DNA of 38,330 nt. Source: Bacteroidales bacterium (GTDB lineage Bacteria; Bacteroidota; Bacteroidia; Bacteroidales; UBA932). The stretch is from assembly GCA_017634595.1 (NCBI GenBank), contig JAGBNC010000033.1:1-38330 (forward strand). Reading direction: 5' to 3'. The notes beneath the pieces are model-generated. The model worked only from the letters and a program-made list of their open reading frames with translations. It was not told where the DNA came from and ran no database searches. A program made the position numbers and the translations under genes. Numbering within the stretch: the stretch's first letter is position 1; each line of letters begins with the position of its first letter. Below are positions 18,420-38,173 of this stretch, in pieces.

Positions 18420-20255
18420 TTAGTCGTCGAATGAAACACCATCGTCCCATCCGGGATTCTGGGTCAGTGCTCCGTGAGTGATGGAGCGCTGGTCGGCGGG
18501 AATCGGCCAGAGGTAGTCGCGGCTGTCGTCCCATGCGTAGTCCTCTGCAGCATAGTAGGTAAGGAATCCCTTGTCACCTTCCGACAAGGTGAAGTTGCCT
18601 CCTATCTCTATTTGATTGGTGGCTGGAGCTTTAGTCGAAGGCTTGGAACCCTTGTAAAGCAGGAGGTCGATGGAGCCGTCACCGTCGAGGTCATACTCTC
18701 CGAGGCCGGGCACATAGATGCCCTGTGCGCCTGCGGTGGCCTTGGGTGTGAGCCACTTGCCTTCGCCCCAGCGCAGCAGGTCCCACTGACGGAAGCCCTC
18801 GCAGAAGAGCTCTACGGTGCGCTCGCGGCGGATTTCCAGTATGGCTGCCTTCTGGGCGCCCTTGGCGTTGGGATAATATGCGGCCATGAGTGCATCTTCG
18901 GTGGCGGGGACGCTTGCCATAGCGGGCATTCCCACGCGGGCGCGAAGTACATCAATAGTCCTGGCCACGTCTTCATTGGTAAGCTCGCCCAGTTCGGCCT
19001 TGGCCTCAGCATAGTTGAGGAGCACTTCTGCGTAGCGGAGCAGGGGATAGTCGGTGGTGGAAGTGGTAGCTGTCTCGTGGTTGGAGTCGGAGATGAACTT
19101 AATCACCCTATATCCGTTGAAGGTGCGCTCGAACGAAAGCTGCTCGTGGGCGCTTGCTCCGAGGGCTACGTAGGAAGGTCCGTGAAGCGACTGGGCCATA
19201 CGGGGATCCCTATTGGCAAATGCATCTGCATAGGAGAGTGTCTGCCAGCCTGTACGGTTCTGGATGGGAGTGCCGTCGCTCTGCAGGTAGTGGTTCACGA
19301 AGCGTGCAGTAGCGCTGCGGTGCTGGTTCTTGAAGTCGAACTGGACGCCGTGGCGAACCAGTACATCGACGCTATAGCGGCGTGAGAGTATGGTCTCGTC
19401 GGTCTCTGCATCCTCGAGGATGAAGTACTCGCGATAAGATGCATTGGTGGCTTTGGGGGCCAGCTTGAGGGTGTTTCCGGTGTAAAGCTTGCGGGTGCCG
19501 ATGAGCTTGCCTGCGGCATCGGCCGCCTGGCGGAGGAACCATTCGGAAGAGATGGTGGCTTCGTCGTAGGTCTCGGTTTCGTTCGGGACATATGCTGTGC
19601 CAGCATGATACTTGCGGAACGTGCCTTCATATAGTGCAATACGGCTCTTGAGTGCAAGGGCGGCGTCCTTGGACACGTGATATACTGCCTGCTCCGACCA
19701 CTTTGCAGGAAGGAGTTCGTATGCCCTGTCGAGGTCCTGGATGGCTTTCATCATCACGTAGCCTCTGTTGTCGCGGGGCCTCTTGAGGTCAAGCGAATCG
19801 CTGGAGCCGATTACATGGTCGTACCAAGGTATATCGCCGTACATACGGACTTTGTTGAAGTAGAACCAGGCGCGGAAGAAGTAGCATACACCGTCGTACA
19901 TTCCCTTTACGGATTCGTCGGGGCACTTGTTGTTCTCCAGCATATAGTTGATGTTGCGCAGCGGCTTCCAGGTGCCTTCGCTCCATGATTTGGACGACGG
20001 GGTGCGTGTGCCTTTCTGGATTGCCGACAGCGATGCTGACGAATAACTGTCGTCGGCACTGAGCTCGGCAAGGTCGTCGGCGCTGGGAAGTATGTCGTTG
20101 TAAAGCTTGTTGGCCCAGAGGTCAAGCTCTGCCTTCGAGGAGAAGAAAGAACCTGGCGAAAGGTAAGTCTCCGGAGCCTTTGTAAGGAAGTCATCGCAAG
20201 CAGTTAACGAGGCTGCTGCGGCAAATATGGCAAGAGGTATAAATATCTTTTTCAT
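18420..20255 (-). CDS. susD: SusD/RagB-family surface glycan-binding lipoprotein
   Basis: The 611-residue lipoprotein (signal ending LTAC, then DDFLTKAPETYLSP) has the typical SusD start and TPR-like helices. The C-terminal region ILEIRRERTVELFCEGFRQWDLLRWG is diagnostic of the RagB/SusD family. SusD proteins form a lid over the SusC barrel and capture ligand at the surface. It begins 5 bases after susC, and its stop lies 3 bases before the phosphodiester-glycosidase gene, so all three are one transcript. The ligand cannot be predicted from this sequence, but the enzymes downstream suggest a phosphate-containing glycan or conjugate. Confidence 0.95.
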   Translation of the reverse strand: MKKIFIPLAIFAAAASLTACDDFLTKAPETYLSPGSFFSSKAELDLWANKLYNDILPSADDLAELSADDSYSSASLSAIQKGTRTPSSKSWSEGTWKPLRNINYMLENNKCPDESVKGMYDGVCYFFRAWFYFNKVRMYGDIPWYDHVIGSSDSLDLKRPRDNRGYVMMKAIQDLDRAYELLPAKWSEQAVYHVSKDAALALKSRIALYEGTFRKYHAGTAYVPNETETYDEATISSEWFLRQAADAAGKLIGTRKLYTGNTLKLAPKATNASYREYFILEDAETDETILSRRYSVDVLVRHGVQFDFKNQHRSATARFVNHYLQSDGTPIQNRTGWQTLSYADAFANRDPRMAQSLHGPSYVALGASAHEQLSFERTFNGYRVIKFISDSNHETATTSTTDYPLLRYAEVLLNYAEAKAELGELTNEDVARTIDVLRARVGMPAMASVPATEDALMAAYYPNAKGAQKAAILEIRRERTVELFCEGFRQWDLLRWGEGKWLTPKATAGAQGIYVPGLGEYDLDGDGSIDLLLYKGSKPSTKAPATNQIEIGGNFTLSEGDKGFLTYYAAEDYAWDDSRDYLWPIPADQRSITHGALTQNPGWDDGVSFDD

Positions 20256-20260
20256 AATCG

Positions 20261-23200
20261 TCAGAATGTAATGTCAACACCGAAGGAGAAGGTCCTGGAG
20301 TAAGGATAAACGATATCCTCGGCGACGCCGGTGGTGGCGACTTCGGGGTCTATGTACTTGGTTGCCTTCTTGAGGGGTGACCAGTAGAAGAGGTTCTCGC
20401 CAGAGAAGTATATGCGGGCTTTCTCTATGATCTTGTTCTCGGGCAGGGGCAGGGTGTAGCCCACGGTGAGGTTCTTCAGACGCAGATATGCTGCGCTCTG
20501 CAGCCAGTAGTCGGAAGCAAAGATGTTGCTTCCGGTGCAGATGCGGCCGCGCTGCCTTGGATAGATTGCCTTGCTGTTGTCTGCGCCGGGTTCGGCCGAC
20601 CAGCACTTGCTGAGGAAGTCCTTGGGGATGAAAGAAGGACGATGATAGGAGTAAGGTCCCCAGTAGTAGAGGCAGTTGGATGCAGGCATCCAGTCCATCT
20701 TGCCTACGCCCTGGAAAAATACGCTGATGTCAAGTCCGGCCCAGCTCACATCGCCCCTGAATGCATAATTGTAACGGGGAAGGCTGTTTCCTATGACCAT
20801 ACGGTCGCCGGGGTCGTCGAGGGTATTGGCTCCCGAGTTGATGGCGGGGTTGTCATCAATGTTGACATACTTGATATCGCCAGCCATAAGGTGGTTCCAT
20901 GGAGCCGCCTGGCCTTTGATGCCCTTGTTGACAGTGCCGAAAGAGTCGTGTGCGGCTTCCCAGGCGGCAGCTTCTTCATCGGTGGCGAAGAGGCCGTCGG
21001 TCTTGTAACCCCAGATCTCTCCGAGTTCTTTACCGATGTAGCTGTCACTCAGGAGTTTGTCGGGGTTGTTGAACTTGGTGATAAATGTGCGGAAGTCGCC
21101 CAGTGTGGCGGTGACTCCATAATACAGAGGCTTGCCGGCCAAGCTTACGTTGTCTTTCCAGCTGACAGCGATTTCGTATCCTCTGGTAGTAAGGTCTGCG
21201 GCGTTCTCCTTGGGAGCGGCCTCACCATATACGTAGGGCAATGTCATTGCTTTGGTGAGCATGTTCTTGGTGTCGCGGATGAAGAAGTCGGCAGTGAGGG
21301 TGAGACGGTTGCGGAAGAAACCGAGGTCGATGCCTATATTCTTTGAAATCACGGTCTCCCAGGTAAGGCTGCTGGAAACGGGGGAGCTTGCGTAAGCCTG
21401 TCCTGCATTCGTGGTCCCGTCGAAGGTATAGCCGCCGAGTGTGCTTGTTTTGATGGTATCCCAGTAGTAATAATCGTCAACCTGCTGATTTCCAAGTGTT
21501 CCGTACGATGCGCGGATCTTGAAGTTGTTGACTATCGGTCTGATGTTGGTCCAGAAAGGCTCTTCAGATATTCTCCAGCCCACAGATGCTGAAGGGAAGA
21601 AGCCCCAGCGGTGGCCTTTGGGGAAGCGGGAAGAACCGTCGTAGCGCCCGGAGAGTTCCAGTAGATAGCGTCCGTCGTAATCGTAATTGATACGTCCGAA
21701 GAAGCCAAGCGTACGGTAGGCTGATACGTTGCCGGAAGCCTTCTCGATCTCGCCGTTGGCCATGTTGATGTAAGCAAGGCTCGGGCTCATGGAACCTTTC
21801 TGCTGAATCATCAGGCTGCGTCCGTAATAATCGTCATAGTTGGCGCCGAGAGTCGCGGACACGTTGTGTGCTCGGCCGAAGGTATTGTGGAAATTGAACC
21901 AGGCGTTGGCGACGTTGCCGTTCTGATAGTAGTTGTACTCTCGGTAGAAGTCGTACACGGAACCGTTGGAGAAGTATCCGCCGGACAGACCGTTGCCTTG
22001 GTACATCCTCTTGTTTACGTTGTCGTAACTGTTGGGAGTGGGGTTGCTGCGGTATCCTGCCTGGCGGTCACGGCGACGATATGTGTAATCGGCTGTGAAG
22101 TCGAGCCATTTTGTGATGTGGGCAGTCAGGCGGCTGGTCCAGGTCCAGTAGTTATTGACGTTGGAGTTGTGATTGGAGTCGGCAAGCATCACGCCGGCAC
22201 GGCCGCTCATGAGGGGAGATGTGGCGCCGGTCATGAATCCCGGTACCATGTTGATGGTTCCGTCGGGGTTGTAGGGGACGTAAGTCGGGCTTACGTTCTG
22301 GGTGATGTTCCAAGTTATGCCCTGGTTCACGAAACCGGTGGAGCCGTCTATTTCCCAGAATCCGCCCCAGTCATAGTCGGTACGCTGCAGACTTACGTTG
22401 GTGGAGAAGTCGAGCCAGGAGGTGATCTTGGCGTCAACCTTGCTGCGCAGGGACAGGCTGTTCAACATATCGGAAGCATATCCCTTGAATACGCCCTCAC
22501 GGTAGAGGTAACGTCCGGATACATAGTACTTTACCTTGTCGTTGCCGCCACGTACGGTGATGTTGTGCTCGGTCTCGGGACGGGTCTTCTTGAACAGGAA
22601 GTTGTACCAGTCGAAACTGGCAAGATATACGTAAGTGTTGGTGCCGGTGGCGTCGGGGATGACCCAGGGACGGGCGGGATTTTCGCTTACGTCTCCGTGG
22701 CGCTCCTTAAGCATCTCGAGCTGCTCGTCCGAATAGGTAAAAGCGCCATCTCCTGTAAGGGTCTTGTAGAAACTGTTGCACAGGGTCACGTAGTCGTAGC
22801 CGTCGGTGATGAAGTCGGTGCTGGTGGTGTTCTGGGACAGGCTGTAGCGGCCGTTGTAGCTGATCTGGGCCTTGCCTGTCTTTCCGCTCTTGGTGGTGAT
22901 GAGTATGACGCCGGCGGAGGCCTTTGCACCATAGATTGCGCATGAAGAAGCATCCTTGAGGATGGAGACGCTCTCTATATCGTTGGGGCTGACCTGCGTG
23001 AGGGAAGCCTCGATGCCGTCGACGAGTACCAGAGGGGAACCGCTGTTGAGGGACACCTTGCCTCGGATGTTCACGCTGTAGTTGTTGCCTTCGAGGGAGC
23101 CGGAATTCTGGGTGAGCACCAGCGAAGGATCAGCACCCTGAAGGGCCATGGCTGCGTTGGTAACGGGACGGGCGTTGAGGTCCTTGCCGTCGATGACGCC

Positions 23201-23575
23201 CACGGCGCCGGTCAGGTTGACCTTCTTCTGGGTGCCGTAACCCACCACCACAAGCTCTTCGAGCATGGTGTTTTCAGTGTCCATAGTGATGACGAACGGG
23301 GAAGTCTCATGACCTGTGATGGTGATGACCTTGTCGTCGAAGCCGATGAAAGAAATTGTCACTTCTGCAGGGAAACTCATTCCGTCCAGAGTGAATTTTC
23401 CGTCGTTGTCGGTGAGAGCGTACTTGCCGCTCTTGTCAACAAGCGAGGCGCCCACAAGAGGCTCTCCCATCTTGTCGACCACAGTACCGGAGACGGAATC
23501 CGGGGTCTGTGCCTGAAGCTCTGCGCTCAAGCTGAGAGGCAGAAGCATCGTGAGCAGGATTAAGATTTTTTTCAT
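20261..23575 (-). CDS. susC: SusC/RagA-family TonB-dependent outer-membrane transporter
   Basis: The 1104-residue protein has a signal peptide (1-23), a carboxypeptidase-regulatory-like domain (27-103, SGTVVDKMGEPLVGASL), the TonB-box-like EELVVVGYGTQKK (106-118), and a plug with VNIRGKVSLNSGSPLVLVDG and SILKDASSCAIYGAKASAGV. A 22-strand barrel ends in FSFGVDITF. It imports bulky ligand across the outer membrane with SusD, powered by TonB. No TonB, ExbBD or anti-sigma/ECF pair lies nearby, and the N-terminus lacks the signalling extension used with such pairs. Control must therefore come from elsewhere, probably through the operator upstream of 27804. It starts 26 bases after the DUF4886 lipoprotein gene. 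Confidence 0.97.
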   Translation of the reverse strand: MKKILILLTMLLPLSLSAELQAQTPDSVSGTVVDKMGEPLVGASLVDKSGKYALTDNDGKFTLDGMSFPAEVTISFIGFDDKVITITGHETSPFVITMDTENTMLEELVVVGYGTQKKVNLTGAVGVIDGKDLNARPVTNAAMALQGADPSLVLTQNSGSLEGNNYSVNIRGKVSLNSGSPLVLVDGIEASLTQVSPNDIESVSILKDASSCAIYGAKASAGVILITTKSGKTGKAQISYNGRYSLSQNTTSTDFITDGYDYVTLCNSFYKTLTGDGAFTYSDEQLEMLKERHGDVSENPARPWVIPDATGTNTYVYLASFDWYNFLFKKTRPETEHNITVRGGNDKVKYYVSGRYLYREGVFKGYASDMLNSLSLRSKVDAKITSWLDFSTNVSLQRTDYDWGGFWEIDGSTGFVNQGITWNITQNVSPTYVPYNPDGTINMVPGFMTGATSPLMSGRAGVMLADSNHNSNVNNYWTWTSRLTAHITKWLDFTADYTYRRRDRQAGYRSNPTPNSYDNVNKRMYQGNGLSGGYFSNGSVYDFYREYNYYQNGNVANAWFNFHNTFGRAHNVSATLGANYDDYYGRSLMIQQKGSMSPSLAYINMANGEIEKASGNVSAYRTLGFFGRINYDYDGRYLLELSGRYDGSSRFPKGHRWGFFPSASVGWRISEEPFWTNIRPIVNNFKIRASYGTLGNQQVDDYYYWDTIKTSTLGGYTFDGTTNAGQAYASSPVSSSLTWETVISKNIGIDLGFFRNRLTLTADFFIRDTKNMLTKAMTLPYVYGEAAPKENAADLTTRGYEIAVSWKDNVSLAGKPLYYGVTATLGDFRTFITKFNNPDKLLSDSYIGKELGEIWGYKTDGLFATDEEAAAWEAAHDSFGTVNKGIKGQAAPWNHLMAGDIKYVNIDDNPAINSGANTLDDPGDRMVIGNSLPRYNYAFRGDVSWAGLDISVFFQGVGKMDWMPASNCLYYWGPYSYHRPSFIPKDFLSKCWSAEPGADNSKAIYPRQRGRICTGSNIFASDYWLQSAAYLRLKNLTVGYTLPLPENKIIEKARIYFSGENLFYWSPLKKATKYIDPEVATTGVAEDIVYPYSRTFSFGVDITF

Positions 23576-23601: not shown

Positions 23602-26600
23602 TTATTCGTTGTAGAACTTGATGTTGGCGGATGTCATGGTGCTGTTGGAGCTGTTGGCCTGGCCAGCATACTGGAAGTAGTTGTCTGCGGTGAGGGTGAC
23701 GTACTCGGTGCCGGAAGTGCTGTATTTGCCGACCCGGCCGCTGACGTGGCAGTTGCTGAATGTCGATTTTTTGTTGCACTGGCCATAGAGGGCGCCGGTG
23801 TAAGTCTGTTCGCCTGTAAGATTGAAGTTGCTTGACACTATGTCTGCGCCTATGCTCGAGCAGTCCTTCATCTGGACGCTGTCGTGGTTGATGAGGCATA
23901 TTATGCCGGCTGCGCTGGCGCTCTGGCTGACTATGTTGCCTTTATTGACGCATCCTTCGAGTGAGCAGCCGACGGCGGCAATGCATGTGATGCCGCCTAT
24001 GCGGTAGTTTCCACCCTGCATGAAATACAGATTGCCGTTGTTGGTGCAGTTCTTGAGGATAGCGTACTGCTGTGCCGCGGACAGAATGCTGGAGGTGCGT
24101 CCGGCGGTGCTGTAAATGTCGGCATCGTTGACGCATTCAGTGAAGGTCGCTGTCTTGGTGTTGCCTTGGTTTGTGGACAAGCCTGCAATGCCTCCCAGCT
24201 GTACTCCGTTGCCGCCGTTTCCTTTGTTGCCGCCGCAGGAGAACGGGGCGTCAGCGCTGCCTATTGCTCCTGCATTGTACAGTTTGCTGAGAGTTGCATT
24301 CTGGTCTGAAGGATGTACCCAGCCTACGAGACCGCCGACCACAACTCTGCCGGCTGCGGCATTGTTGGTCAGTGAAGAAGTTCCGCCACCGCTTACGGGA
24401 GCGTAGTTCTTGACGTTCTCAATCTGGGCTCCCTTTACGAGTCCCGCAAGCGTTCCGAAGCACCCTGCCACTCCGGTAGAAATGCTCATAGAGCAGGTGG
24501 AGTCGAAGGTGAGATCTTTGACCGCGGCTCCGTCACCTATGCCTCCGAAGAAGCCGCACACCGTGTTGGCTTTAGTAGGGGCGAACGACATATTGAGGCC
24601 CTTGATGGAATGGTTCTGGCCGTCGAAGGATCCATTGAAAACGTTTCCTGAGATGGTGATAGAAGTTGCCCCCCAACTTGACAAGGTGCAGTTGCCGATG
24701 GGGGTCCAGTCTGTTATTGAAGAACAGTCTATGTCGGCGCTAAGGGTGACTTCAGCATTTATGGCATCGGAATCGCCGCTGTTTACGCTTGCTGCGAAGG
24801 CGAGAAGCTCTTCTGCATTGGAAATGCTGATTTTCTTGGTCTCAGTGGGAGTGTCTTCTCCGCCGATTCCGGTCATGTCGGTCACTGTGTAAGGATTGGC
24901 AATTGCGTAGCGTGCCGCCATGAGAGCTACTGGAGCGTTGGCGTCGGTTACGTGAGTTCCGTCCGCGCTGTAGCGGTAGCTGTTGGAATCGAGTTTGAGA
25001 TTGCCGTTGAAGGGACCTATGATAGTCTCGAATACGGTGCAGGAAGCGCCGTAACGGGCGATTCCGAGGTCCATGTGGTAACCGTCACGGGTCAGGCCCA
25101 TGTCGTTGTTGAGCTTAGAGGTGCGGAGGTTCTGGAGCATGGCTCCGGTAGAGATCACCCCGTCGAATCCGCAGGTCTCCACGGCGGTCTTTGCCTGTGC
25201 GGCTATGACTTTCCACATGCCCGCCTGGTCGCTGAAAGGCTTCGTAACGTTTTGGGCCCTTGACAGATCGTGATATGCCTGCGACAGTATGTAGTAAAGC
25301 TTGGGGTTGCCGCCCAGGCCTGCCTGAGCCTCCTTGATTTTGCTGACTATGCCGCTGACGGCTGTCTTCTCGTCGTCGGTCCAGCCCCATGCAAGCAACC
25401 TTCCGGTGTGCTCCTGGACGGTGACCACATCGTATTTCTGGCTTGCTGCGACCTGGCTCAAGGAATAGCCTGAAACGTCTGTCCATGATGTCTCGCCGGG
25501 GTTGCAGATGTAGCAGTGGTAGTCGCTTGATGTGCTCCACCCGTTGTTGTATTCGGGTACGGTGCGGCCGCCGTAGTACATATGGACCATTTGGATCTTA
25601 TTCAGACCTGCCGCCGCGAGTATGCCGGGAAGGTGCTCCACTGCATCTTTTGTGAAGCTGTTGCCGATGAAGAATATGCGGAAGTCGGCTTCCACGTTGA
25701 GGTCCGTAACCGGCTTTTCACCGGTGATGATGTCGTAGGTGATGTTGGTGTAAGTGCCTGCGTTGGAGGTGTTGGGGCCGAGGTAGTTGATCTTGCCGGC
25801 TTCGCTGTAGAGGTCATATTCGTAAGTGCCTCCGTTGTACTTGCCCACCTTTCCGGATGCATGGCAGTTGTTCCATGTGCAGTTCTGGTTGATATAGCCG
25901 AAGAACACACCGCGGTACTGGCTGTCGGAGATGATTCTGCCGTAGTTCTCGCACATTGAGTAAGTTACGCCGGGGGCGTTGGGGAGTGATACCAAGCCTC
26001 CCACGCGGGCCTCGGTGGTCGATACCAGGTCGCCGTAGTTCTTGCAGCGGGTCATTGTAGAACCGTTTGCAGTGATGCAGGTGATGTTGCCCAAGCGGCC
26101 GGCGCCTTTGCTGGCCATTGTGTTCAGCTGGTCGCCGTGGTTTTCGCATCCGGTGATATCGGTGCAGGAGTTGGCGGCCGCCACTATTCCGGAGGTGCGT
26201 CCGGCCTGGGATGTAAGGCTGCCGTAGTTGTTGCAGTCGGCAATCTTGATGCGTTTGGAATTGCCTACAGGGGCATTAGCAAATCCTACTATGCCGGCAA
26301 TGTGTATGCCACTTGCGCCGGCAGCCATGTTTGCGCTGTTGGTGCAGTTGATTTCGCCGTGGTTGTGTACGCTGTCGATGGTCACGCCCTGGTCCTTGGC
26401 ATACACTCCGCCTATGAGGGCCATGTGGAAGAGCCCTGTGGCTCCGCCCTTGTATGTCATGGGAGCGTAGCTGGTGACGTCGCGCACTTGACCGTCATAC
26501 ACCACGCCGGCTATCATGCCTGCGCTCAGGGATACCGAGCTGTTGACGGTAAGGGAGCAGTTGTCCTCTATCACGAAGTTCTGGACGAGTGCTCCGGGGC

Positions 26601-27669
26601 CTACGTATCCGAACAGGCCGAAGTGTTTGCCGGCCGTGGTCTCGTTGCATACAAGACTCAAGTTCTTGATGTGATGGGCGTTGCCGTCGAACTTGCCGAG
26701 GAAAGGGTGGCCTTCGGTGACCTGGGGATTGTAGGATGCCCAGGGGGCAGTGGCGTTGCCTACGGGAGTCCAGTCGGTAATGCCGGAGAAGTCGATGTCT
26801 GCCAGCAGATTGACTACGCCTTCTTCGTTCTCCCAGGGCTCGGTGGACTCGCCTGCGTTGACCGCTGCGGCAAATGCTGCAAAGTCGGCTGCGGACAAGA
26901 TGCCCTTGGCCTGGCCGAAGTCGAGTGCCGGGAGGCTGCGGAGGCTGCCGATGGTGAGGGTGCGGGAACTGAGGTTCTTGCGCATGATGCTGCCGCTGGC
27001 GGTCTCGAAGTCAATCTGAAGGCCCTGAGCATATTCTCCTGCGGGAACGGGCACGTAGATGACTGTGGGCTCCGTGTCAAGTGTAGCGCCGCTCAGTACG
27101 GTGACGGTGTTGCTTCCGCCTTCAGCAGGGGTGAGTTCGGGTGTGCTGTAGTCGATGGCGAAGTCGCCGCTGATCGGCTCGCCGCCAAGGGCTGTGACGT
27201 TTACCTGCTTGAGTGTCTGTCCGGCGCCGGTGACTTGCAGCTTGAGGAGAGCGGTAAGAGGAACAAAGCTGAGCGAGGAGCCCGATTCGGCATAAGCTGC
27301 AAGGGGAGTGGTGCCGCTGGTGGATTCCCAGGTGGCCGGGAGAGTGACGGTGGCGTCGTCTTTGTAGATGGCTGCAGGGTAAACTGCCTTGTACGGTGCC
27401 GTGAGGGCGTCGGTGAAGCTGAAGTTAGCTATTTCCGTTGCGGCCTCGATGGGCTCCGAGTTGCTGCCGTTCACGCAGACGGCGTCGCCCTCCGACCAGC
27501 TGACTTTCACGCCCTCAATGGATGTCTTGCTGAGGGGTTGGAGCTTGGCGGAGAGAACGGTTTTTATTTCTTTTTTGCCAGAGATGACCTGCTCGGGAGT
27601 TTCTTTGTTGCACCCGGCGAGGATGGTTGTTGCGGCGGCAAGGACCGCCAAAATTGTTTTTGCGTTCAT
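23602..27669 (-). CDS. Giant GLUG/DUF4886 lipoprotein with fimbrillin-like N-domain
   Basis: The 1355-residue lipoprotein (signal ending ILAGC) has a fimbrillin-like domain (about 30-260, with VKVSWSEGDAVCVNG). A first GLUG helix (about 265-640) opens with LLADIDFSGITDWTPVG. A central domain at about 660-910 resembles DUF4886, an SGNH-like hydrolase family: FFIGNSFT with a possible nucleophile Ser, TVQEHTGR, and GYHMDLGIARYGAS. A second GLUG helix (about 945-1355) opens with LSADIDCSSITDWTPIG. The hydrolase is thus inserted between two copies of the same repeat module. SGNH-like enzymes usually cleave esters such as acetyl groups; the substrate here is unknown. It is the first large gene of the SusCD operon, 12 bases after a 40-codon ORF. 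Confidence 0.8.
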   Translation of the reverse strand: MNAKTILAVLAAATTILAGCNKETPEQVISGKKEIKTVLSAKLQPLSKTSIEGVKVSWSEGDAVCVNGSNSEPIEAATEIANFSFTDALTAPYKAVYPAAIYKDDATVTLPATWESTSGTTPLAAYAESGSSLSFVPLTALLKLQVTGAGQTLKQVNVTALGGEPISGDFAIDYSTPELTPAEGGSNTVTVLSGATLDTEPTVIYVPVPAGEYAQGLQIDFETASGSIMRKNLSSRTLTIGSLRSLPALDFGQAKGILSAADFAAFAAAVNAGESTEPWENEEGVVNLLADIDFSGITDWTPVGNATAPWASYNPQVTEGHPFLGKFDGNAHHIKNLSLVCNETTAGKHFGLFGYVGPGALVQNFVIEDNCSLTVNSSVSLSAGMIAGVVYDGQVRDVTSYAPMTYKGGATGLFHMALIGGVYAKDQGVTIDSVHNHGEINCTNSANMAAGASGIHIAGIVGFANAPVGNSKRIKIADCNNYGSLTSQAGRTSGIVAAANSCTDITGCENHGDQLNTMASKGAGRLGNITCITANGSTMTRCKNYGDLVSTTEARVGGLVSLPNAPGVTYSMCENYGRIISDSQYRGVFFGYINQNCTWNNCHASGKVGKYNGGTYEYDLYSEAGKINYLGPNTSNAGTYTNITYDIITGEKPVTDLNVEADFRIFFIGNSFTKDAVEHLPGILAAAGLNKIQMVHMYYGGRTVPEYNNGWSTSSDYHCYICNPGETSWTDVSGYSLSQVAASQKYDVVTVQEHTGRLLAWGWTDDEKTAVSGIVSKIKEAQAGLGGNPKLYYILSQAYHDLSRAQNVTKPFSDQAGMWKVIAAQAKTAVETCGFDGVISTGAMLQNLRTSKLNNDMGLTRDGYHMDLGIARYGASCTVFETIIGPFNGNLKLDSNSYRYSADGTHVTDANAPVALMAARYAIANPYTVTDMTGIGGEDTPTETKKISISNAEELLAFAASVNSGDSDAINAEVTLSADIDCSSITDWTPIGNCTLSSWGATSITISGNVFNGSFDGQNHSIKGLNMSFAPTKANTVCGFFGGIGDGAAVKDLTFDSTCSMSISTGVAGCFGTLAGLVKGAQIENVKNYAPVSGGGTSSLTNNAAAGRVVVGGLVGWVHPSDQNATLSKLYNAGAIGSADAPFSCGGNKGNGGNGVQLGGIAGLSTNQGNTKTATFTECVNDADIYSTAGRTSSILSAAQQYAILKNCTNNGNLYFMQGGNYRIGGITCIAAVGCSLEGCVNKGNIVSQSASAAGIICLINHDSVQMKDCSSIGADIVSSNFNLTGEQTYTGALYGQCNKKSTFSNCHVSGRVGKYSTSGTEYVTLTADNYFQYAGQANSSNSTMTSANIKFYNE

Positions 27670-27681
27670 TGCTGTCGATGT

Positions 27682-27804
27682 TTAATTCCAGGTGTCGGGA
27701 ATTTCTCCATAATCTTGAATCTGGCCATTTGAGGCCTGCAGAAATGCATATACGGGGAGTTCCGTCATGTCGAACATTTCAGGTCTAAGATAACGTGCTT
27801 TCAT
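27682..27804 (-). CDS. Small ORF heading the SusCD operon (40 codons)
   Basis: The reading frame encodes 40 residues, starting MKARYLRPEMFDMTELPVY and ending DYGEIPDTWN. It is the first gene after the promoter at 27826, 21 bases downstream of the -7 box, and stops 12 bases before the giant lipoprotein gene. It shares the Tyr-x-x-Pro-Glu start and acidic Trp-Asn end with the ORFs at 30324 and 14149. It has no signal peptide or Cys, so it is unlikely to be exported by Sec. Possible roles, all inferred, are a leader peptide that couples translation, a small regulator, or a modified peptide precursor. Confidence 0.7.
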   Translation of the reverse strand: MKARYLRPEMFDMTELPVYAFLQASNGQIQDYGEIPDTWN

Positions 27805-27825: not shown

Positions 27826-27833
27826 CAAATTTA
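27826..27833 (-). promoter_or_regulatory. -7 box of the SusCD operon
   Basis: On the minus strand TAAATTTG (followed by CA) matches TAnnTTTG. It lies 21 bases before the small-ORF ATG at 27804. The proximal direct repeat of the operator begins exactly 35 bases beyond its upstream end, as at the 30504 promoter. Confidence 0.7.
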
Positions 27834-27867
27834 AAAAACCTCGCGCGACCGCGTAGACTGATAGGTG

Positions 27868-27901
27868 TGACTATTTATCCCCGATTTGTGATTATTTGTC
27901 C
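27868..27901 (-). promoter_or_regulatory. Paired direct-repeat operator upstream of the SusCD operon
   Basis: Two 13-base repeats, read on the minus strand as GGACAAATAATCA (27889-27901) and GGATAAATAGTCA (27868-27880), start 21 bases apart, two helical turns. With the pair at 30546-30580 they give the consensus rGAcAAATnrTcA. Spacing and position just upstream of the core promoter are those of an activator that binds as a head-to-tail dimer, such as LytTR- or AraC-type proteins. The regulator is not identified. Confidence 0.65.
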
Positions 27902-27918
27902 CAAAAAGCTGTCATTTC

Positions 27919-27969
27919 CGGGCAAGGTCCCCTTTTTGACGGCAGACCTTGCCCGCCGACCGTCAAAAA
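27919..27969. repeat. Two interleaved 10-11-bp inverted repeats (pseudoknot or switch topology)
   Basis: Stem 1 pairs 27919-27929 (CGGGCAAGGTC) with 27945-27955 perfectly. Stem 2 pairs 27933-27942 (TTTTTGACGG) with 27960-27969 perfectly. The arms alternate (a, b, a', b'), so the stems are either mutually exclusive hairpins or an H-type pseudoknot. They lie between a terminator and the operon operator. No gene covers this stretch. Confidence 0.55.
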
Positions 27970-27997
27970 AACAGCCGTCCCGATGAACGAGCGGCTG
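27965..27997 (-). terminator. Rho-independent terminator after the GLUG lipoprotein gene
   Basis: On the minus strand CAGCCG (27992-27997) pairs with CGGCTG (27972-27977), followed by seven T (27965-27971). It lies 34 bases after the stop of the 28031 gene. It separates the two lipoprotein units, whose promoters are therefore independent. Confidence 0.75.
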
Positions 27998-28030
27998 ATA
28001 CAGCTAGTTTTTTAATCTTTACTAAAATAA

Positions 28031-30319
28031 TTAGTTGCTATAGTAGTCGGCTCCGAGAGTCATAAGGGCGTCGGGAATTGCATGGAAATCCGAGGAGCTT
28101 AAGTCTGACCACGTAATGACTTCTCCTTCTGTGGGAGTGTATTTGGAGTATTTTGTGCTACTGGACTTGTCAATATTCAGGACATCCTTCAGATGATATT
28201 CACCGGATGCCAAGCTCTGTCCAAAGCCGGAGAAATCCTTTGCAACAGGTGCCGTCCAGTCCATAGAGACATCTTTTGCGGAAGTAAAGGCCCACTGGCC
28301 GTCTCTGTTTGCGTTTGTTGAATCTTCATTGGTTCCCCAATACTGCCAACCGATGGTTGCTTCTGCACATCCTCCGAAATAGTATGCGCAGAGATTTCCT
28401 GAAGCGACGACTCCAACTATCTGACCGATTTTGCCGGAGCCGGATCTGCCGTGAATGGAGCCAATCTTGATATCCTTGGCATAAAGAGGGGAATAGACGT
28501 TCTGAATAGTTCCACCGGTCTGACGTCCCACAAGACCGCCGACGTTCACCACTGCTTTGGTTTTATCTGTACAAGACGCGGAACACTTTACGGTGATGTC
28601 ACCTGTCGCGCTATTGAAGAGCAGTCCGCCGAGAATACCTACAAGGCCGCCTGCCCCGTAATCTGCAGTATTGGAAGTCACGGTGACATTGGAATTGGAG
28701 AAACAGTTGGCAACGGTTCCGGCTACTTGATACCCTACAATGCCGCCCACACGGTTCGTTCCGGTAATAGTTTTACCCTTGGAAGAATAGCATCTTCTGA
28801 TAGTTGAGCCTGCCCTCAGAGAACCAGCAATGCCGCCGGTGTTAGCGCCACCGTCAATTTCGCCTTTATTGATACACTTGTCGATGGTGCCAGTCATATC
28901 TCCTACTATACCAGCAGCAAAAGCCTTGGATGCATTAACATAACCCTCATTTACGCAAGATATAATTTTACTGGTATTCAGGGCTCTGCCCACGATGCCG
29001 GCAGTATAAGAATTATTTCCATTTGTGTTGGTGATCATAGCCGTATTAGTGCACCCTGAGATGAGACTCGTTCCGCTCATCTGCCCGGCAATACCTGCGG
29101 TATATAAGCCACTTGATGAAACAGTACCGGTTACAGTTAGGTCCTTAATGGTTGCATTCTCGATGTATCCGAAGATACCGGTATTGTCAGTGGTTGTATT
29201 GATTGCCACGTTCAGAATACTCGTGCCATTACCATCATATACACCGGTAAACTTGGCAGACTCTGTTCCAATGGGTATAAGGTTGGCGTTTTTGGTTTGT
29301 ATATCATTTTGCTGCTGATAATTAGCACCAAGGAAACTTGCAGCTTTGATGCTCCCATAACCCTCTACCGTGTACTTCTGGAGGTTCTTGAGGTCGCGGG
29401 CGGTGGCAATCTTATAGGGATTCTCTTGAGTACCCTCGCCGCCGGAGAACAGGCCGGCGTAGAAGGACATGGTGGAAATGGTATTCCTGGAGCGGGCGGC
29501 TTTGCTGGGGTTGGTGATAGTAAAGCTCTTGGTGCCTCCGTTGTGATTCTCTGCAAGTTTGGCTGTAACAGAAAGGCCGCTGGGGAGCTGAACGGTAGGA
29601 ATTAGGAAGAGAACATCTGCAGTTTCTGCGGGGCTCTTAAGCGTTACCTTAACCTCAGTTTTGCTTGTAGCCGTTTCATTATAGCTCATTGTCTTATCAG
29701 AGGCGTTTACTATAAATTTGCCCCCGTCAGCAAAATACACCATTGACCCATAATCCAGCGACATGGATTCGATATTGACATCGGCATTCACCTTGACGCG
29801 AAGAACGGAAGCTAAGTTTCCAAGCTCTACGGTATATGCCCCGGGCTCTCCGTTAATCACGCCGGCCATGGGATTTATGGCGCCGAAATCGCCGTTTGCC
29901 TCAATGCCTGCGGGCATGACAAACAATACGCTGCTCCCACTCACTTCGTACTCTCCTGCAGGGTAGAACACGCTTGCGGTACCGCTCAATGATACTGCGG
30001 TTTCGCCATCTTTGAGGACGAACTCAGTCCCGTTGTATGTGTAAATGGCATGATTATCCTTGTCAACGAAAACGAGAACTTCATCATCGTTCTCAATGGC
30101 GGTAGTACCTGAGGCGAGGTCAACAGAAACCTTTGTCGCGCCCTCTATGACGGCGCCGAAGCTGGTAAGCAGGTTGCCGTCGGCAGCAGGTGTGATTTCA
30201 GTCTGGTCGGCGGGACCGACAGGAGCAAGAGTATTGTCTCCGGTAATAACTGTCTTTTCGCATGAGAAAAGCAGTGCGGCCATAACTGCGAGGCCGAGTA
30301 TTTTAGTCGTCTTTTTCAT
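28031..30319 (-). CDS. Fimbrillin-like/GLUG-repeat surface lipoprotein
   Basis: The start is placed at 30319, where the lipoprotein signal MKKTTKILGLAVMAALLFSC begins; the longer frame runs into the small ORF. The 762-residue protein has a fimbrillin-like N-terminal domain (about 25-290, with NDDEVLVFVDKDNHAIYTYN). Next come a linker GGEGTQENPYKIATARDLKN and a GLUG beta-helix to about 640, with regular AGIAGQ, AGIVGR, AGIVGD, GGIAGS, GGIVGY, GGLVGI and GGLVGR turns. A C-terminal non-repeat region follows. There is no enzyme motif. It resembles adhesin or glycan-binding modules of the neighbouring operon. It is cotranscribed with the small ORF 4 bases upstream and is less GC-biased to the eye than the housekeeping genes. 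Confidence 0.78.
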   Translation of the reverse strand: MKKTTKILGLAVMAALLFSCEKTVITGDNTLAPVGPADQTEITPAADGNLLTSFGAVIEGATKVSVDLASGTTAIENDDEVLVFVDKDNHAIYTYNGTEFVLKDGETAVSLSGTASVFYPAGEYEVSGSSVLFVMPAGIEANGDFGAINPMAGVINGEPGAYTVELGNLASVLRVKVNADVNIESMSLDYGSMVYFADGGKFIVNASDKTMSYNETATSKTEVKVTLKSPAETADVLFLIPTVQLPSGLSVTAKLAENHNGGTKSFTITNPSKAARSRNTISTMSFYAGLFSGGEGTQENPYKIATARDLKNLQKYTVEGYGSIKAASFLGANYQQQNDIQTKNANLIPIGTESAKFTGVYDGNGTSILNVAINTTTDNTGIFGYIENATIKDLTVTGTVSSSGLYTAGIAGQMSGTSLISGCTNTAMITNTNGNNSYTAGIVGRALNTSKIISCVNEGYVNASKAFAAGIVGDMTGTIDKCINKGEIDGGANTGGIAGSLRAGSTIRRCYSSKGKTITGTNRVGGIVGYQVAGTVANCFSNSNVTVTSNTADYGAGGLVGILGGLLFNSATGDITVKCSASCTDKTKAVVNVGGLVGRQTGGTIQNVYSPLYAKDIKIGSIHGRSGSGKIGQIVGVVASGNLCAYYFGGCAEATIGWQYWGTNEDSTNANRDGQWAFTSAKDVSMDWTAPVAKDFSGFGQSLASGEYHLKDVLNIDKSSSTKYSKYTPTEGEVITWSDLSSSDFHAIPDALMTLGADYYSN

Positions 30320-30323
30320 GGCT

Positions 30324-30464
30324 CTAGTTCCAATCATCAGATTCTTCTGTCTCGTTAACATCAAATGTCTCCGTCGAAGGTTTGAATTTAGAGTTCATCA
30401 GTACCCCTTCTGCAGACACGACTATGATGCGGCACAGGGGTGAGGTGTAGTTTGTATTATACAT
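30324..30464 (-). CDS. Small ORF of the acidic Trp-tail type (46 codons) upstream of the GLUG lipoprotein
   Basis: The frame is open from 30506, but the ATG at 30464 (MYNTNYTSPLCRIIVVSAEG) is preferred because the -7 box at 30504-30511 would overlap the longer start. The 46-residue product ends VNETEESDDWN, matching the acidic Trp-Asn tail of the ORF at 27682. It stops 4 bases before the lipoprotein ATG, which suggests translational coupling. It is the first gene of its unit, as at the SusCD operon. Function unknown. Confidence 0.7.
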   Translation of the reverse strand: MYNTNYTSPLCRIIVVSAEGVLMNSKFKPSTETFDVNETEESDDWN

Positions 30465-30503
30465 ATTGTTTAGTTTTGATTGTCGTATTTGAAGGAAAGC
30501 CAA

Positions 30504-30511
30504 CAAATTTA
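30504..30511 (-). promoter_or_regulatory. -7 box of the small-ORF/GLUG unit
   Basis: On the minus strand TAAATTTG, identical in core to the SusCD operon box, lies 39 bases before the ATG at 30464. Exactly 34 bases separate it from the proximal operator repeat, the same as at the other promoter. Confidence 0.65.
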
Positions 30512-30545
30512 TAAATTATAGTATGTGCATAATAATGCCGGGGCG

Positions 30546-30580
30546 TGACCATTTGTCCGCACCCCTATAACAATTTGTCT
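30546..30580 (-). promoter_or_regulatory. Paired direct-repeat operator upstream of the small-ORF/GLUG unit
   Basis: Minus-strand repeats GGACAAATGGTCA (30546-30558) and AGACAAATTGTTA (30568-30580) start 22 bases apart. They match the pair at 27868-27901 in sequence, orientation and distance to the -7 box, while the bases between repeats and box differ. This marks them as selected sites. The site lies 10 bases after the transporter gene stop. Confidence 0.65.
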
Positions 30581-30590
30581 AAAGATGTGT

Positions 30591-31964
30591 TTAAATAACC
30601 TGCTGCTTGCGTTTCCAGTTGAGGATGGGGAGGAGGCAGGAGATGATGGCGGCGCCGAGCCAGAACCAGCTGACGTATGTAAAATCGTGCACGCCGTCCA
30701 CTATATTATTGTCCAGGAGAAGGCCGGTTACTATGTTCTGAAGGCCTGCTGCTGCATACGAGGCAATGCCGACGATACCCAGTGCGGCGCCGCTCGCTTT
30801 GCGTGGTACAAGGTCCACAGCCATGAGTCCGCCCAGGAAACTGATGAGCACGCCTATGGCTATGCCGAACAGAATCATGGCAAGGATGTTGACCCATTTG
30901 GCGGGGCCGCCGAAGAGGAAGAGCGCCAAGGCTACCGACTCCAGCAGGCCGGCGACGAACGCAGGATACTTGCGGTCTCCCTTGAACAGCACATCGGACA
31001 GCCATCCCGAGACCACAGTGCCTATTATACCGAATATAGGATTCACTCCAATAATCGCCGCAGCGCCGGCCAGGTCGTATCCCTTGGCCTCCTGCAGGAA
31101 GATGGTGCCCCATTCGTTGATGGCGTACCGGCTCATATACATAAATGCGCTGGACAGTGCCAGAATCCACACACCGGGGTTCTTGATGACAGCCTTCTGC
31201 ATCTGCTTGGTCTCAAGGCGCTGGGCAGCCTGGGCATCCTTCCCCTGAGTCTTCTCGCCTGCGAGAACCTCAATGGGAGGCAGCCCCTTGCTGTCTGGGT
31301 TGTCATGGAAGAAGAGCAGTACGAGCACGAAGCCGATAAGCCCGGCCAGCGCAGCGCCGAAGAAGCCCCATTTCCATCCGAAGGCGGCCACAATGGAGCC
31401 AACGAACACGAAAGAAAGTCCCTCGCCGATATTGTGCGAAGCGCTGAAAATGCCGTAGTAGGTGCCCCTTGTCTTGAGCGGGAACCAGCGCGAGAGGCTC
31501 ACGATACTCGCAGGCGCCCCCATCGACTGGGCGAATCCGTTGATAGCCCAAAACACGCAGAAGGAGATGAACAGCACTGAATTGGCAATAGTACCGTTGA
31601 GCGCGCTCACGCCGAGCACTCCCATTATGAAATTCATTCCGACCGACAGTATGATGCCGGTTGCCATGAATCGCTTGATGTTGGCATTGTCGGCAAGAAA
31701 TCCGTTGACCAGTTTGCCCACAGCGTAGGTCCAGTACAGGCAAGCGCCCACGATACCGAGCTGTGTGGCGTTAAGAAGACCAGCATCGATGATGGGCTGC
31801 TTCATCACGCCCATGGACAGGCGGCACACATAATATAGAGCATACCCCAGCGTGGCGGCAATGAAAGTCTGCATCCTCAGACGCTTGTAAGTCTTGTCCA
31901 CTTTGTCGGCAGCGACCTTGTCGGGGGATGCCGGACTGATCCTGTAGAAGTCGAGTATCTTCAT
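30591..31964 (-). CDS. MFS transporter of the organophosphate:phosphate antiporter type (GlpT/UhpT/UhpC-like)
   Basis: The 457-residue protein has 12 hydrophobic segments and the OPA-type N-terminus YALYYVCRLSMGVMKQPII, followed by GIVGACLYWTYAVGKLVNGF, close in pattern to UhpC/UhpT/GlpT. These exchange glycerol-3-phosphate or hexose-phosphates for inorganic phosphate across the inner membrane. The exact substrate is not readable. Its ATG shares one base with the stop of the AraC-type gene (TAATG), so the two are coupled. No terminator follows, and the operator of the next unit starts 10 bases later. A sugar-phosphate porter beside a phosphodiester glycosidase locus is suggestive. Some OPA members (UhpC) are sensors rather than transporters. 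Confidence 0.82.
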   Translation of the reverse strand: MKILDFYRISPASPDKVAADKVDKTYKRLRMQTFIAATLGYALYYVCRLSMGVMKQPIIDAGLLNATQLGIVGACLYWTYAVGKLVNGFLADNANIKRFMATGIILSVGMNFIMGVLGVSALNGTIANSVLFISFCVFWAINGFAQSMGAPASIVSLSRWFPLKTRGTYYGIFSASHNIGEGLSFVFVGSIVAAFGWKWGFFGAALAGLIGFVLVLLFFHDNPDSKGLPPIEVLAGEKTQGKDAQAAQRLETKQMQKAVIKNPGVWILALSSAFMYMSRYAINEWGTIFLQEAKGYDLAGAAAIIGVNPIFGIIGTVVSGWLSDVLFKGDRKYPAFVAGLLESVALALFLFGGPAKWVNILAMILFGIAIGVLISFLGGLMAVDLVPRKASGAALGIVGIASYAAAGLQNIVTGLLLDNNIVDGVHDFTYVSWFWLGAAIISCLLPILNWKRKQQVI

Positions 31965-32497
31965 TATGCTTTGTTGATTGCTGGATTGGAGACGCCGCTT
32001 CGGAACTCGGTGGGCGTCAAAGAGTATTGCTTCTTGAAACTACGGCAGAACGACTCGCGCGTGGTGAATCCTGAAGCAGCGGCGACCTTGGACACGGGCA
32101 TGTCCGGCTGCATCTTCAGCAGTTCTTTGGCATATTCCAGCCGGCAGGAGTTAATGAATGCCGGTATCGAAGTGCCGTAGGAAGAGAATGCCAGCCCTAT
32201 TTCCTCTTTGCTGAGGTGGAAACGGTCCATCAGGTTCTGCCGGCAAAGGTTGGGGTTCAGAAAAAGCTTTTCAGACAGTATGGCCTTGCTGATTTCGGCA
32301 AAAACACTTTCGGAGTTTGCTTCCGGAATGCTCACAGGAACTGGCTCAGGAATATTCTGCTGATATCGTAAGTTGCTGGGGGGGGGTAATTTACGTGAAT
32401 GAATGTACTTGTAGACAAAAAACGCCAATAGATTACCGAGGATAATAATTGCCGTCAACTCGATAATCAAAAGTCTTATTAATTGGGTCTCAGTCAT
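31964..32497 (-). CDS. Membrane-anchored AraC-family transcriptional regulator
   Basis: The 177-residue protein starts at 32497; an in-frame ATG at 32521 lies inside the -7 box and is rejected. Residues 7-29 form one transmembrane helix, followed by a Pro-rich linker (35-60) and an AraC-type double helix-turn-helix at about 82-168 (SKVAAASGFTTRESFCRSFKKQYSLTPTEFR). The protein should be tethered to the inner membrane with the DNA-binding part in the cytoplasm. There is no ligand-binding domain, so it may sense through the membrane or a partner, perhaps the cotranslated transporter. Pro38-40 are encoded by an uninterrupted run of nine C, so slippage would cut the DNA-binding domain from the anchor. 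It is the only regulator gene inside the block. Confidence 0.82.
   Translation of the reverse strand: MTETQLIRLLIIELTAIIILGNLLAFFVYKYIHSRKLPPPSNLRYQQNIPEPVPVSIPEANSESVFAEISKAILSEKLFLNPNLCRQNLMDRFHLSKEEIGLAFSSYGTSIPAFINSCRLEYAKELLKMQPDMPVSKVAAASGFTTRESFCRSFKKQYSLTPTEFRSGVSNPAINKA
32378..32386 (-). repeat. Nine-C homopolymer in the AraC-type gene (possible phase-variation tract)
   Basis: Nine consecutive G on the plus strand (nine C in the coding strand) encode Pro38-Pro40 in the linker between the membrane helix and the DNA-binding domain. Loss or gain of one base would frameshift before the helix-turn-helix. It is the only homopolymer of C or G this long that I noticed in the window. Confidence 0.6.
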
Positions 32498-32509
32498 GCT
32501 TTCTGAGAA

Positions 32510-32517
32510 CAAAATTA
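32510..32517 (-). promoter_or_regulatory. -7 box of the AraC-type gene
   Basis: On the minus strand TAATTTTG ends 12 bases before the ATG at 32497. Its overlap with the in-frame ATG at 32521 decides the start in favour of the downstream ATG. Confidence 0.6.
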
Positions 32518-32566
32518 ACATTTTTAAACATATTATGAAAATTTTTCCCTTTAGCGGAAATATGAT

Positions 32567-37288: not shown

Positions 37289-38173
37289 ATGAGCTACTTC
37301 AGCCTATTTGACACATCTTCCACTAAAGCGGGGGACCGTAAAAGGCGTTTCTTATTCCTGCTGATCAACGCCATTGTCCTGAGTTGGGTCGTCTGGTCTA
37401 TCGTGAATTTCCGTAACTATGCTGCCCTGCCAAGGGATGAAGTCCTCAAGGAGATCCTGGTGGATATGCTTGAAAGCGTCATTGAGGTCACGGTGTTTGT
37501 GGCGTTGTCTGTTTTGTACAGCAACATCATCTTCAAATTATTCTGGGGACACAAAAGGACACTGAACAAACTGTTTTTCCAGGTCATCACCTTAACCTTT
37601 TTCACTGCTTTGACCTCGCTGGCAATCGGATGGTTGTACAGTGTGATATATCCGACCGATGAAGGTATCATGCTTCGGATATTCATTTCCGATTTTACTG
37701 TTGTGTCCATCCTTTCCACAACCTATTTCGTCTCTTTCCTGATCAGCCGGACGATGCAGAGCAATTCCTCCAAGGGCTTTCTGCAATGTACCGGTATCTG
37801 GTCTGCAACGCCGACAGGCACTTGATTCCTCTCAAGGACGAAATCCGTTTTACGGAGAATTACGCCGCGCTCGTCCACTACCGTTACGACGGTATCAGAA
37901 TTGAGATTGATGAAGCTCAACCGTCACGGAGGCGAGGACCTGCTTCTGGTGAAACTTATGCGGGACGAGGACTATATCGTGGTCAGAAACAACATCCTGG
38001 AACTTATGAGCAGTGATACCGTGAGCACCGGATCAGGGCTGAAAAACCTCTCAGACCGGATCAGGCTGATTTCCGGAAAGGATATCATTGTAGATAATGA
38101 CGGGGCGACTTTCACCGTACGTGTCCCGCTGATTTATGAAGAGGATCTGAGAGATGAAAGTATGGATTATTGA
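37289..38173 (+). pseudogene. Decayed LytS-type sensor histidine kinase
   Basis: Four transmembrane helices are encoded in one frame (37289 to about 37756; roughly residues 21-40, 64-86, 97-120, 130-152). Similarity resumes in another frame as EQFLQGLSAMYRYLVCNAD (about 37760-37912), and returns to the first frame as KLNRHGGEDLLLVKLMRDE to the stop at 38173, ending in ATPase-fold motifs (GSGLKNLSDRIRLISG). Compared with the usual LytS/His_kinase layout, two pieces are missing: the phosphoacceptor segment (HFLFN box) near 37756 and most of the N-box region near 37909. Both catalytic boxes are therefore absent. The short shared strings at the joins (GCAGAGC, GATGAAG) can be read in both frames, as expected for deletion between small repeats. 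Assembly error is an alternative. Confidence 0.75.

Follow-up and report, generated by a model that had tools for sequence, protein, structure and literature searches.

Paired direct repeats before two lipoprotein units of a Bacteroidales genome as probable operators of a membrane-tethered AraC-type regulator

Introduction

In a 38,330-nucleotide stretch of DNA from a Bacteroidales bacterium (contig JAGBNC010000033.1 of assembly GCA_017634595.1; hereafter the window, which is the whole of contig C33 in a 2.59 Mb genome of 36 contigs), two adjacent minus-strand units, each led by a small open reading frame (ORF) and a lipoprotein gene, are preceded by similar pairs of short direct repeats. This raises the question of whether the repeats are operators of a single regulator and, if so, which protein reads them. 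From the comparative genomic evidence assembled here, both pairs are quite probably operators of one local regulon, which would most likely be read by the membrane-tethered AraC-type protein encoded at 31964-32521, acting as a head-to-tail activator.

Results

Paired repeats at a fixed distance from the promoter core

Each unit carries two repeats of the form GACAAATnrTCA (12-13 bases), placed upstream of its small ORF at 27804 or 30464. An earlier note on this DNA had described paired direct repeats separated by 21 or 22 bp, with 34 bases leading to the -7 box in both units, and this arrangement was confirmed on the minus strand: in units 1 and 2 alike, 46 bases separate the start of the proximal repeat from the TAAATTTG box. 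The claim that the intervening sequence is not conserved was likewise borne out by comparing the two units, which have none of it in common, while the repeats themselves, their spacing and the box distance are kept. The primary promoter of Bacteroidota consists of a TAnnTTTG -7 box and a TTTG -33 element about 20 bases upstream. Both window promoters match the box at 6 of 6 bases, and TTTG at 20-21 bases before the box is absent from both. Of the proposal that one activator bound head to tail controls both units, the common head-to-tail operator stands; activation and dimer binding are predictions.

Conservation of the operators in related genomes

Loci of relatives were obtained by searching 200 genomes of the genus for the AraC protein and the lipoproteins, and operator sites were sought at spacings of 20-23 or 21-22 bp. 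In total, 14 sites were identified in six genomes, comprising two in the window, three each in G349 and G209, and two each in G303, G481 and L184 (contig CAMJBH010000003.1), the five relatives being metagenome-assembled genomes (MAGs) of uncultured Bacteroidales or Bacteroidia. These sites front orthologous operons and the AraC regulator gene itself. Their consensus is GACAAATwATCAC for the distal and GAyAAATnGTCAC for the proximal copy, with GA at positions 1-2 invariant in both, and the spacing is 22 bp in 12 of 14 sites and 21 bp in the other two. The mean match to TAnnTTTG peaks at offset 46, reaching 3.93 of 6 against a mean of 1.75 (sd 0.54; 14 sites, 77 offsets from 13 to 89). At least five of the six box bases are present at offsets 44-46 in 10 sites, and at exactly 46 in eight, while an ORF of at least 35 codons begins 76-130 bases past the distal repeat start in all 14. 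Conservation of the spacing in related genomes, a test named in the earlier note, was therefore found, since both spacing and box distance are kept in the five relatives.

Gene order around the sites varies among species. G349 has the order AraC, operator, small ORF/lipoprotein, operator, GDPD, fragment of a major facilitator superfamily (MFS) gene, small ORF, 1355-type lipoprotein, SusC and SusD, with a weaker additional pair in front of AraC. Pairs precede the small ORF/lipoprotein and GDPD in G303, on two contigs; AraC, GDPD-MFS and, on another contig, a metallophosphoesterase lipoprotein with SusC in G209; and the small ORF/lipoprotein and, directly, SusC in both G481 and L184. The second operator is accordingly found in front of GDPD, SusC or a small ORF depending on species, with repeats and spacing kept and box distance mostly so. 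This pattern bears on the suggestion that the promoter was copied from one unit to the other and that its repeats are read by no regulator. The two window units are adjacent and both consist of a small ORF and a lipoprotein gene, but the sequence around the repeats, as well as between them, is unrelated, and the operator changes its downstream gene between species; we find a mere promoter copy scarcely credible.

The promoters also inform the direction of control. A -33 TTTG at 20-21 bases before the box is absent in 10 of the 14 sites, as expected for activation. Given that activation is here deduced from sequence, the bound protein might instead be a repressor; the repeats, however, lie upstream of the promoter core and not over it, and we consider repression unlikely.

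A membrane-anchored AraC-type protein as the candidate binder

The 185-residue protein encoded at 31964-32521 possesses a full-length AraC-type DNA-binding domain (HTH_18, E 1.7e-16, profile positions 3-79 of 80; HTH_AraC, E 2.3e-06) and a single hydrophobic segment within residues 10-40. Only HTH_18/HTH_AraC matches, and no histidine kinase or receiver domains, were found in this protein or in its 294-residue G349 ortholog. Orthologs are present in all six operator genomes (identity over the matched part 58-59% in G303, G481 and L184, 54% in G349 and 46% in G209), and GFTTRESF of the HTH region is invariant in five aligned proteins. An operator lies immediately downstream or upstream of the ortholog in G349, G303, G481, G209 and L184.

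Together, these features are consistent with a one-component regulator that would be held in the inner membrane by its single hydrophobic segment, with the HTH_18 domain in the cytoplasm. Two copies would bind the 21/22-bp direct repeat head to tail, two helical turns apart on the same DNA face, and the proximal copy, placed just upstream of the -33 region, would recruit polymerase to a target promoter whose -7 box is good and which usually lacks the -33 TTTG.

The N-terminus of the window protein differs from that of its relatives, whose orthologs have a signal-like N-terminus (by eye) followed by about 75 residues predicted to be extracytoplasmic; the window copy is without approximately 100 N-terminal residues corresponding to this signal-like segment and the extracytoplasmic helices. 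A TAATTTTG box at 32517 falls inside the first codons of the window gene, which suggests that the ATG at 32497 may be its true start. A weak pair at 32547, upstream of the same gene, was taken as a chance match (4 mismatches, A+T-rich).

The earlier note had named two candidate binders, the nearby AraC-type protein and a LytTR-type regulator at 38154; the former is favoured by the presence of its ortholog in every operator genome and the lack of the pair in 16 homologous loci of 15 genomes in which no ortholog was found, and the latter is not upheld. An excerpt of PMC6193735 describes LytTR operators as two 9 bp elements, usually with a 12 bp gap, often 10 bp upstream of -35; these too are direct repeats 21 bp apart, so geometry alone cannot separate LytTR from AraC. 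No LytTR match was found, however, on the operator contigs of G000, G349, G303, G481 (a 205 kb contig) and G209, while 19 matches lie on other contigs; this search covered five of the six operator genomes, all with LytTR genes, and some of their operator contigs are short (6.5 and 9 kb). At 38154 the window has only part of a receiver: 58 residues, truncated by the end of the contig ahead of any DNA-binding domain, with a Response_reg match (E 0.008) short of the Pfam threshold and no visible LytTR domain. Binding of the repeats by a LytTR response regulator, this candidate or another, is in our view very unlikely.

A second alternative places the reader of the repeats elsewhere in the genome, as a hybrid two-component system (HTCS) or another AraC-type protein, and makes the nearby AraC gene a passenger. 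HTCS proteins combine AraC-type domains with 21-bp direct-repeat operators (excerpt of PMC3878776), the window's genome has eight matches to the AraC domain, and some comparable pairs at other loci lack a neighbouring AraC gene. Nevertheless, in 6 of 6 genomes the membrane-anchored AraC ortholog has operators in its locus, none is present in the 16 homologous loci just mentioned, and several AraC paralogs have adjacent repeats of their own. We therefore give this alternative little weight, and retain the membrane-tethered protein as the most likely reader.

Control loci and pattern scans

Across 17 loci with lipoprotein homologs (L075-L091; 267 kb), no pair was detected at up to four mismatches, and there was one weak match at five; a first-order Markov model predicts 0.6 pairs per 304 kb. 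Sixteen of these loci derive from the 15 genomes in which no such AraC ortholog was found, and whose AraC proteins are all more distant or of different build; the seventeenth is a cut contig of G209, whose AraC gene lies elsewhere. In G342 the lipoprotein has 62% identity, compared with 57% for that of G209, yet this genome has another AraC type and no such pair; relatedness alone is therefore insufficient to account for the operator pattern.

At up to three mismatches, the paired pattern matched the window's genome once per spacing, both times in the window and with one mismatch each, and the reversed-pattern control gave no match there. In 350 genus genomes, the same threshold returned 89 matches at spacing 22 and 122 at spacing 21, against 16 and 18 for the reversed control. 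Stray matches at three mismatches are common (0.05 to 0.35 per genome), and only 9 of the 89 and 6 of the 122 were used, many others being stray or belonging to a palindromic element; surroundings were retrieved for 11 stretches only. Of 11 pairs with one mismatch, seven fall in AraC-type loci (two in the window and one each in G209, G481, G451, G369 and G475), three are copies of the palindromic element (G434, G376, G218), and one is in G239. The last of these (L177:7801, spacing 21 bp) precedes another SusC gene, and no AraC homolog is listed in its 10.6 kb.

A matrix built solely from the sequences of the 14 sites gave, when eight genomes were scanned, 12 matches at E up to 1, all of them training sites, and none in G342, G245 and G244, which carry other AraC paralogs. 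The earlier note had asked for further sites elsewhere in the genome by such a scan; in the window's genome, at E up to 1, only the two window sites were returned, and for this reason the regulon looks local. The single motif at one mismatch has 11 matches in the same genome, of which three are in the window (both unit 1 copies and the proximal unit 2 copy); the other eight lack a partner repeat in the paired scans. The exact-consensus pair, a pattern that proved too strict, matched none of 199 family genomes.

The palindromic element, TGNCAnnnTGNCA, recurs every 21 bp upstream of Hsp20-like genes (L169, L162, L149; named from translations by eye), and is also found near an HtpG-like gene in L159 (around the match at 1501; gene name by eye) and in other genomes. 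It is probably a heat-shock operator of the genus, and yields false matches to the GACAAAT pair pattern.

Other AraC-domain proteins of the genus

Many other AraC-domain proteins of the genus are about 570 residues in length and carry their AraC domain at the C-terminus, behind a long N-terminal part; in the G245 and G369 proteins a hydrophobic segment precedes the AraC domain. The N-terminal part appears TPR-like by eye only, with no Pfam match. Several AraC-domain proteins of the genus adjoin repeats of their own. In L095, ACCCCAATTCGTCC occurs twice, 22 apart, directly after the regulator, followed by a 45-aa ORF ending in DEWN and then a lipoprotein, and L096 has a near copy of this repeat. 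L101 has TTGCTCATTTTTGC twice at 22 and TACTTTTG 43 later, and the repeats of L099 lie in front of a transporter-like gene (by eye). GACAAATAATCA-type repeats at 21 are located upstream of the regulator in L094, L174 and L175; those of L094 and L174 separate the regulator from a divergent gene. The divergent gene of L094 matches DUF3575, and DUF5119 comes after it.

Among 39 AraC genes searched for repeats of at least 12/14 identity, spacings of 21 (three genes) and 22 (four genes) form a peak which, with L101 in both, corresponds to six genes (L095, L096, L099, L101, L094 and L175), against a total of eight gene-spacing matches for the remaining 44 spacings between 15 and 60, and 4 of 600 random stretches. 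L174 falls outside this count despite its 13/14 repeat, the likely reason being the composition filter. It is conceivable, and to us nearly an even question, that kinase-free membrane-anchored AraC regulators form a large undescribed class in the genus, each reading its own adjacent 21/22-bp repeat and controlling an operon for surface proteins, in many cases headed by a small ORF with an acidic D-x-W-N/F tail. In such regulators the extracytoplasmic helices would be the direct sensor of the signal, and the small ORF product could join in sensing.

Evidence weighing against the proposed regulator

A number of observations count against the AraC-type protein as reader of both operators. The window gene adjoins neither operator, an MFS gene lying between it and that of unit 2, and this copy of the regulator would have to be switched without most of the extracytoplasmic part. 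The G209:C65 site is not linked to the AraC gene, and five other pairs with one or two mismatches, in L177 (before a SusC), L178 (palindromic), L179, L180 and L181, have no AraC homolog listed in the stretch retrieved around them; the same is true of G410 (L176), on a cut contig. Four of the 14 sites have a poor or displaced box, namely G349 AraC, G209 GDPD (TAACTTTG at 54), G209:C65 and L184 SusCD (TAAATTCG at 24). Identity to the AraC domain of the window protein is 47-50% in G342 and G245 and 46% in G209, yet G342 and G245 have no such pair; their proteins were distinguished by a length of about 570 aa and by different repeats of their own. The flanks of 33 of the 39 AraC genes lack repeats of at least 12/14 identity at 21/22, and these 33 include the AraC genes of all six operator genomes, where the repeats are imperfect. 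Finally, where the matrix scan recovers the sites it was built from the argument is circular, and of 262 first-look candidates in the window's genome 150 were scored; the control genomes are MAGs, several of them incomplete, and the six operator genomes belong to one genus and are non-independent, with near copies among the G303/G481 lipoprotein sites and the G349/G303 GDPD sites.

Genes of the two units and their surroundings

Coordinates of the operators, regulator and neighbouring genes are collected in Table 1. Unit 1 comprises, in order, the 40-aa ORF, the 1355-aa lipoprotein, SusC, SusD, the BACON/NAGPA protein, a sub-threshold BACON protein and an Exo_endo_phos protein, while unit 2 consists of the 46-aa ORF and the 762-aa lipoprotein. 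The regulon had been described as small ORF, GLUG lipoproteins and SusCD; its common operator holds, but GLUG is not present in both lipoproteins, since at E <= 0.001 it is found in the 762-aa lipoprotein only and the 1355-aa lipoprotein matches DUF4886 only. Both small ORFs are conserved at the protein level across species, with an acidic D-x-W-N/D/F tail.

Table 1. Positions of operator elements, the proposed regulator and neighbouring genes in the window
Feature	Coordinates	Strand	Remark
Distal repeat GACAAATAATCA, unit 1	27889..27900	-	motif conserved in 14 sites of 6 genomes
Proximal repeat GATAAATAGTCA, unit 1	27868..27879	-	start 21 bp past distal start
-7 box TAAATTTG, unit 1	27826..27833	-	46 bases past proximal repeat start
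Distal repeat GACAAATTGTTA, unit 2	30568..30579	-	motif conserved in 14 sites of 6 genomes
Proximal repeat GACAAATGGTCA, unit 2	30546..30557	-	start 22 bp past distal start
-7 box TAAATTTG, unit 2	30504..30511	-	46 bases past proximal repeat start
Membrane-anchored AraC-type regulator, proposed binder of both operators	31964..32521	-	HTH_18 residues 99-175
Small ORF, 40 aa, ends DTWN	27682..27804	-	conserved in G349, G303, G481; G342 more distantly
1355-aa lipoprotein with DUF4886, first large gene of SusCD unit	23602..27669	-	lipobox by eye
SusC	20261..23575	-	unit 1
SusD	18420..20255	-	unit 1
BACON + NAGPA (phosphodiester glycosidase) protein	15963..18416	-	unit 1
Small ORF, 46 aa, ends DDWN	30324..30464	-	conserved in G349, G303, G481, L184
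762-aa lipoprotein with GLUG motif	28031..30319	-	lipobox by eye
MFS transporter nearest PgtP, UhpC, GlpT organophosphate carriers	30591..31964	-	below NCBIfam cut-offs

Traces of rearrangement are visible in the relatives. In G349 (L072:14592-14699) and G303 (L073:5762-5869), a 36-residue fragment of an MFS C-terminus, about 90% identical to the window MFS protein, lies directly before the small ORF and is probably a remnant of gene loss. In G481, the place that GDPD occupies in G349, between the two lipoprotein units, is taken by a gene for a PD-(D/E)XK nuclease family transposase (L172:13449-14585) in opposite orientation.

Discussion

AraC and XylS bind two direct-repeat half-sites about 21 bp apart beside the -35 region, and are soluble, ligand-binding proteins. 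The window operators have a like half-site layout, whereas the regulator proposed here would carry a membrane anchor. A membrane location is also a feature of SusR-like regulators. Their direct-repeat operators in Bacteroides, however, have repeat centres 67 or 77 bp apart (excerpt of PMC3878776), compared with 21/22 bp in the 14 sites described here, which were sought at the spacings given above.

The closest similarity in operator design is to the AraC-type HTCS of B. thetaiotaomicron, whose direct repeats average 21 bp, one of them consisting of two 12-bp sites and a spacer of 9 bp (Ravcheev et al. 2013, PMC3878776, in excerpt). In the same excerpt, HTCS resemble the present system in direct-repeat spacing, AraC-type domain and association with polysaccharide-utilization loci, at least some of which include SusC/SusD. 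An HTCS, on the other hand, unites a periplasmic sensor, a histidine kinase and a receiver, whereas the window protein has one membrane segment and an AraC domain. LytTR systems, as excerpted from PMC6193735, share repeats two helical turns apart upstream of the promoter, coupling to a membrane protein, and autoregulation, to which we liken the pair in front of the AraC gene itself in G209 and G349 (weak in G349); they differ in their DNA-binding domain, and in that membrane protein and regulator are separate genes. Given that AraC-type HTCS operators average 21 bp, the operator geometry is already known for this type of domain, and it is the regulator, kinase-free and membrane-anchored, that departs from the known systems. 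Searches of open-licence PubMed Central for membrane-bound or TPR-type AraC regulators, GLUG lipoproteins and GDPD-SusCD loci found no relevant paper.

The genes led by these operators include a number with phosphate-related functions: NAGPA and Exo_endo_phos in the window, GDPD with an organophosphate-type MFS transporter and a metallophosphoesterase lipoprotein in G209, and GDPD in G349 and G303. The occurrence of NAGPA, GDPD and organophosphate-type MFS genes in operator-led units plausibly points to uptake of a phosphodiester-containing substrate. A SusCD locus is in this way tied to organophosphate-type genes (GDPD, PgtP/GlpT-like MFS, NAGPA, metallophosphoesterase lipoprotein), and this points to a testable class of substrate. 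Further, the rule described here, by which a 21/22-bp direct repeat stands 34 bases from the -7 box in the locus of a membrane-anchored AraC gene, can be used to match such regulators with their operators and targets in uncultured gut Bacteroidales.

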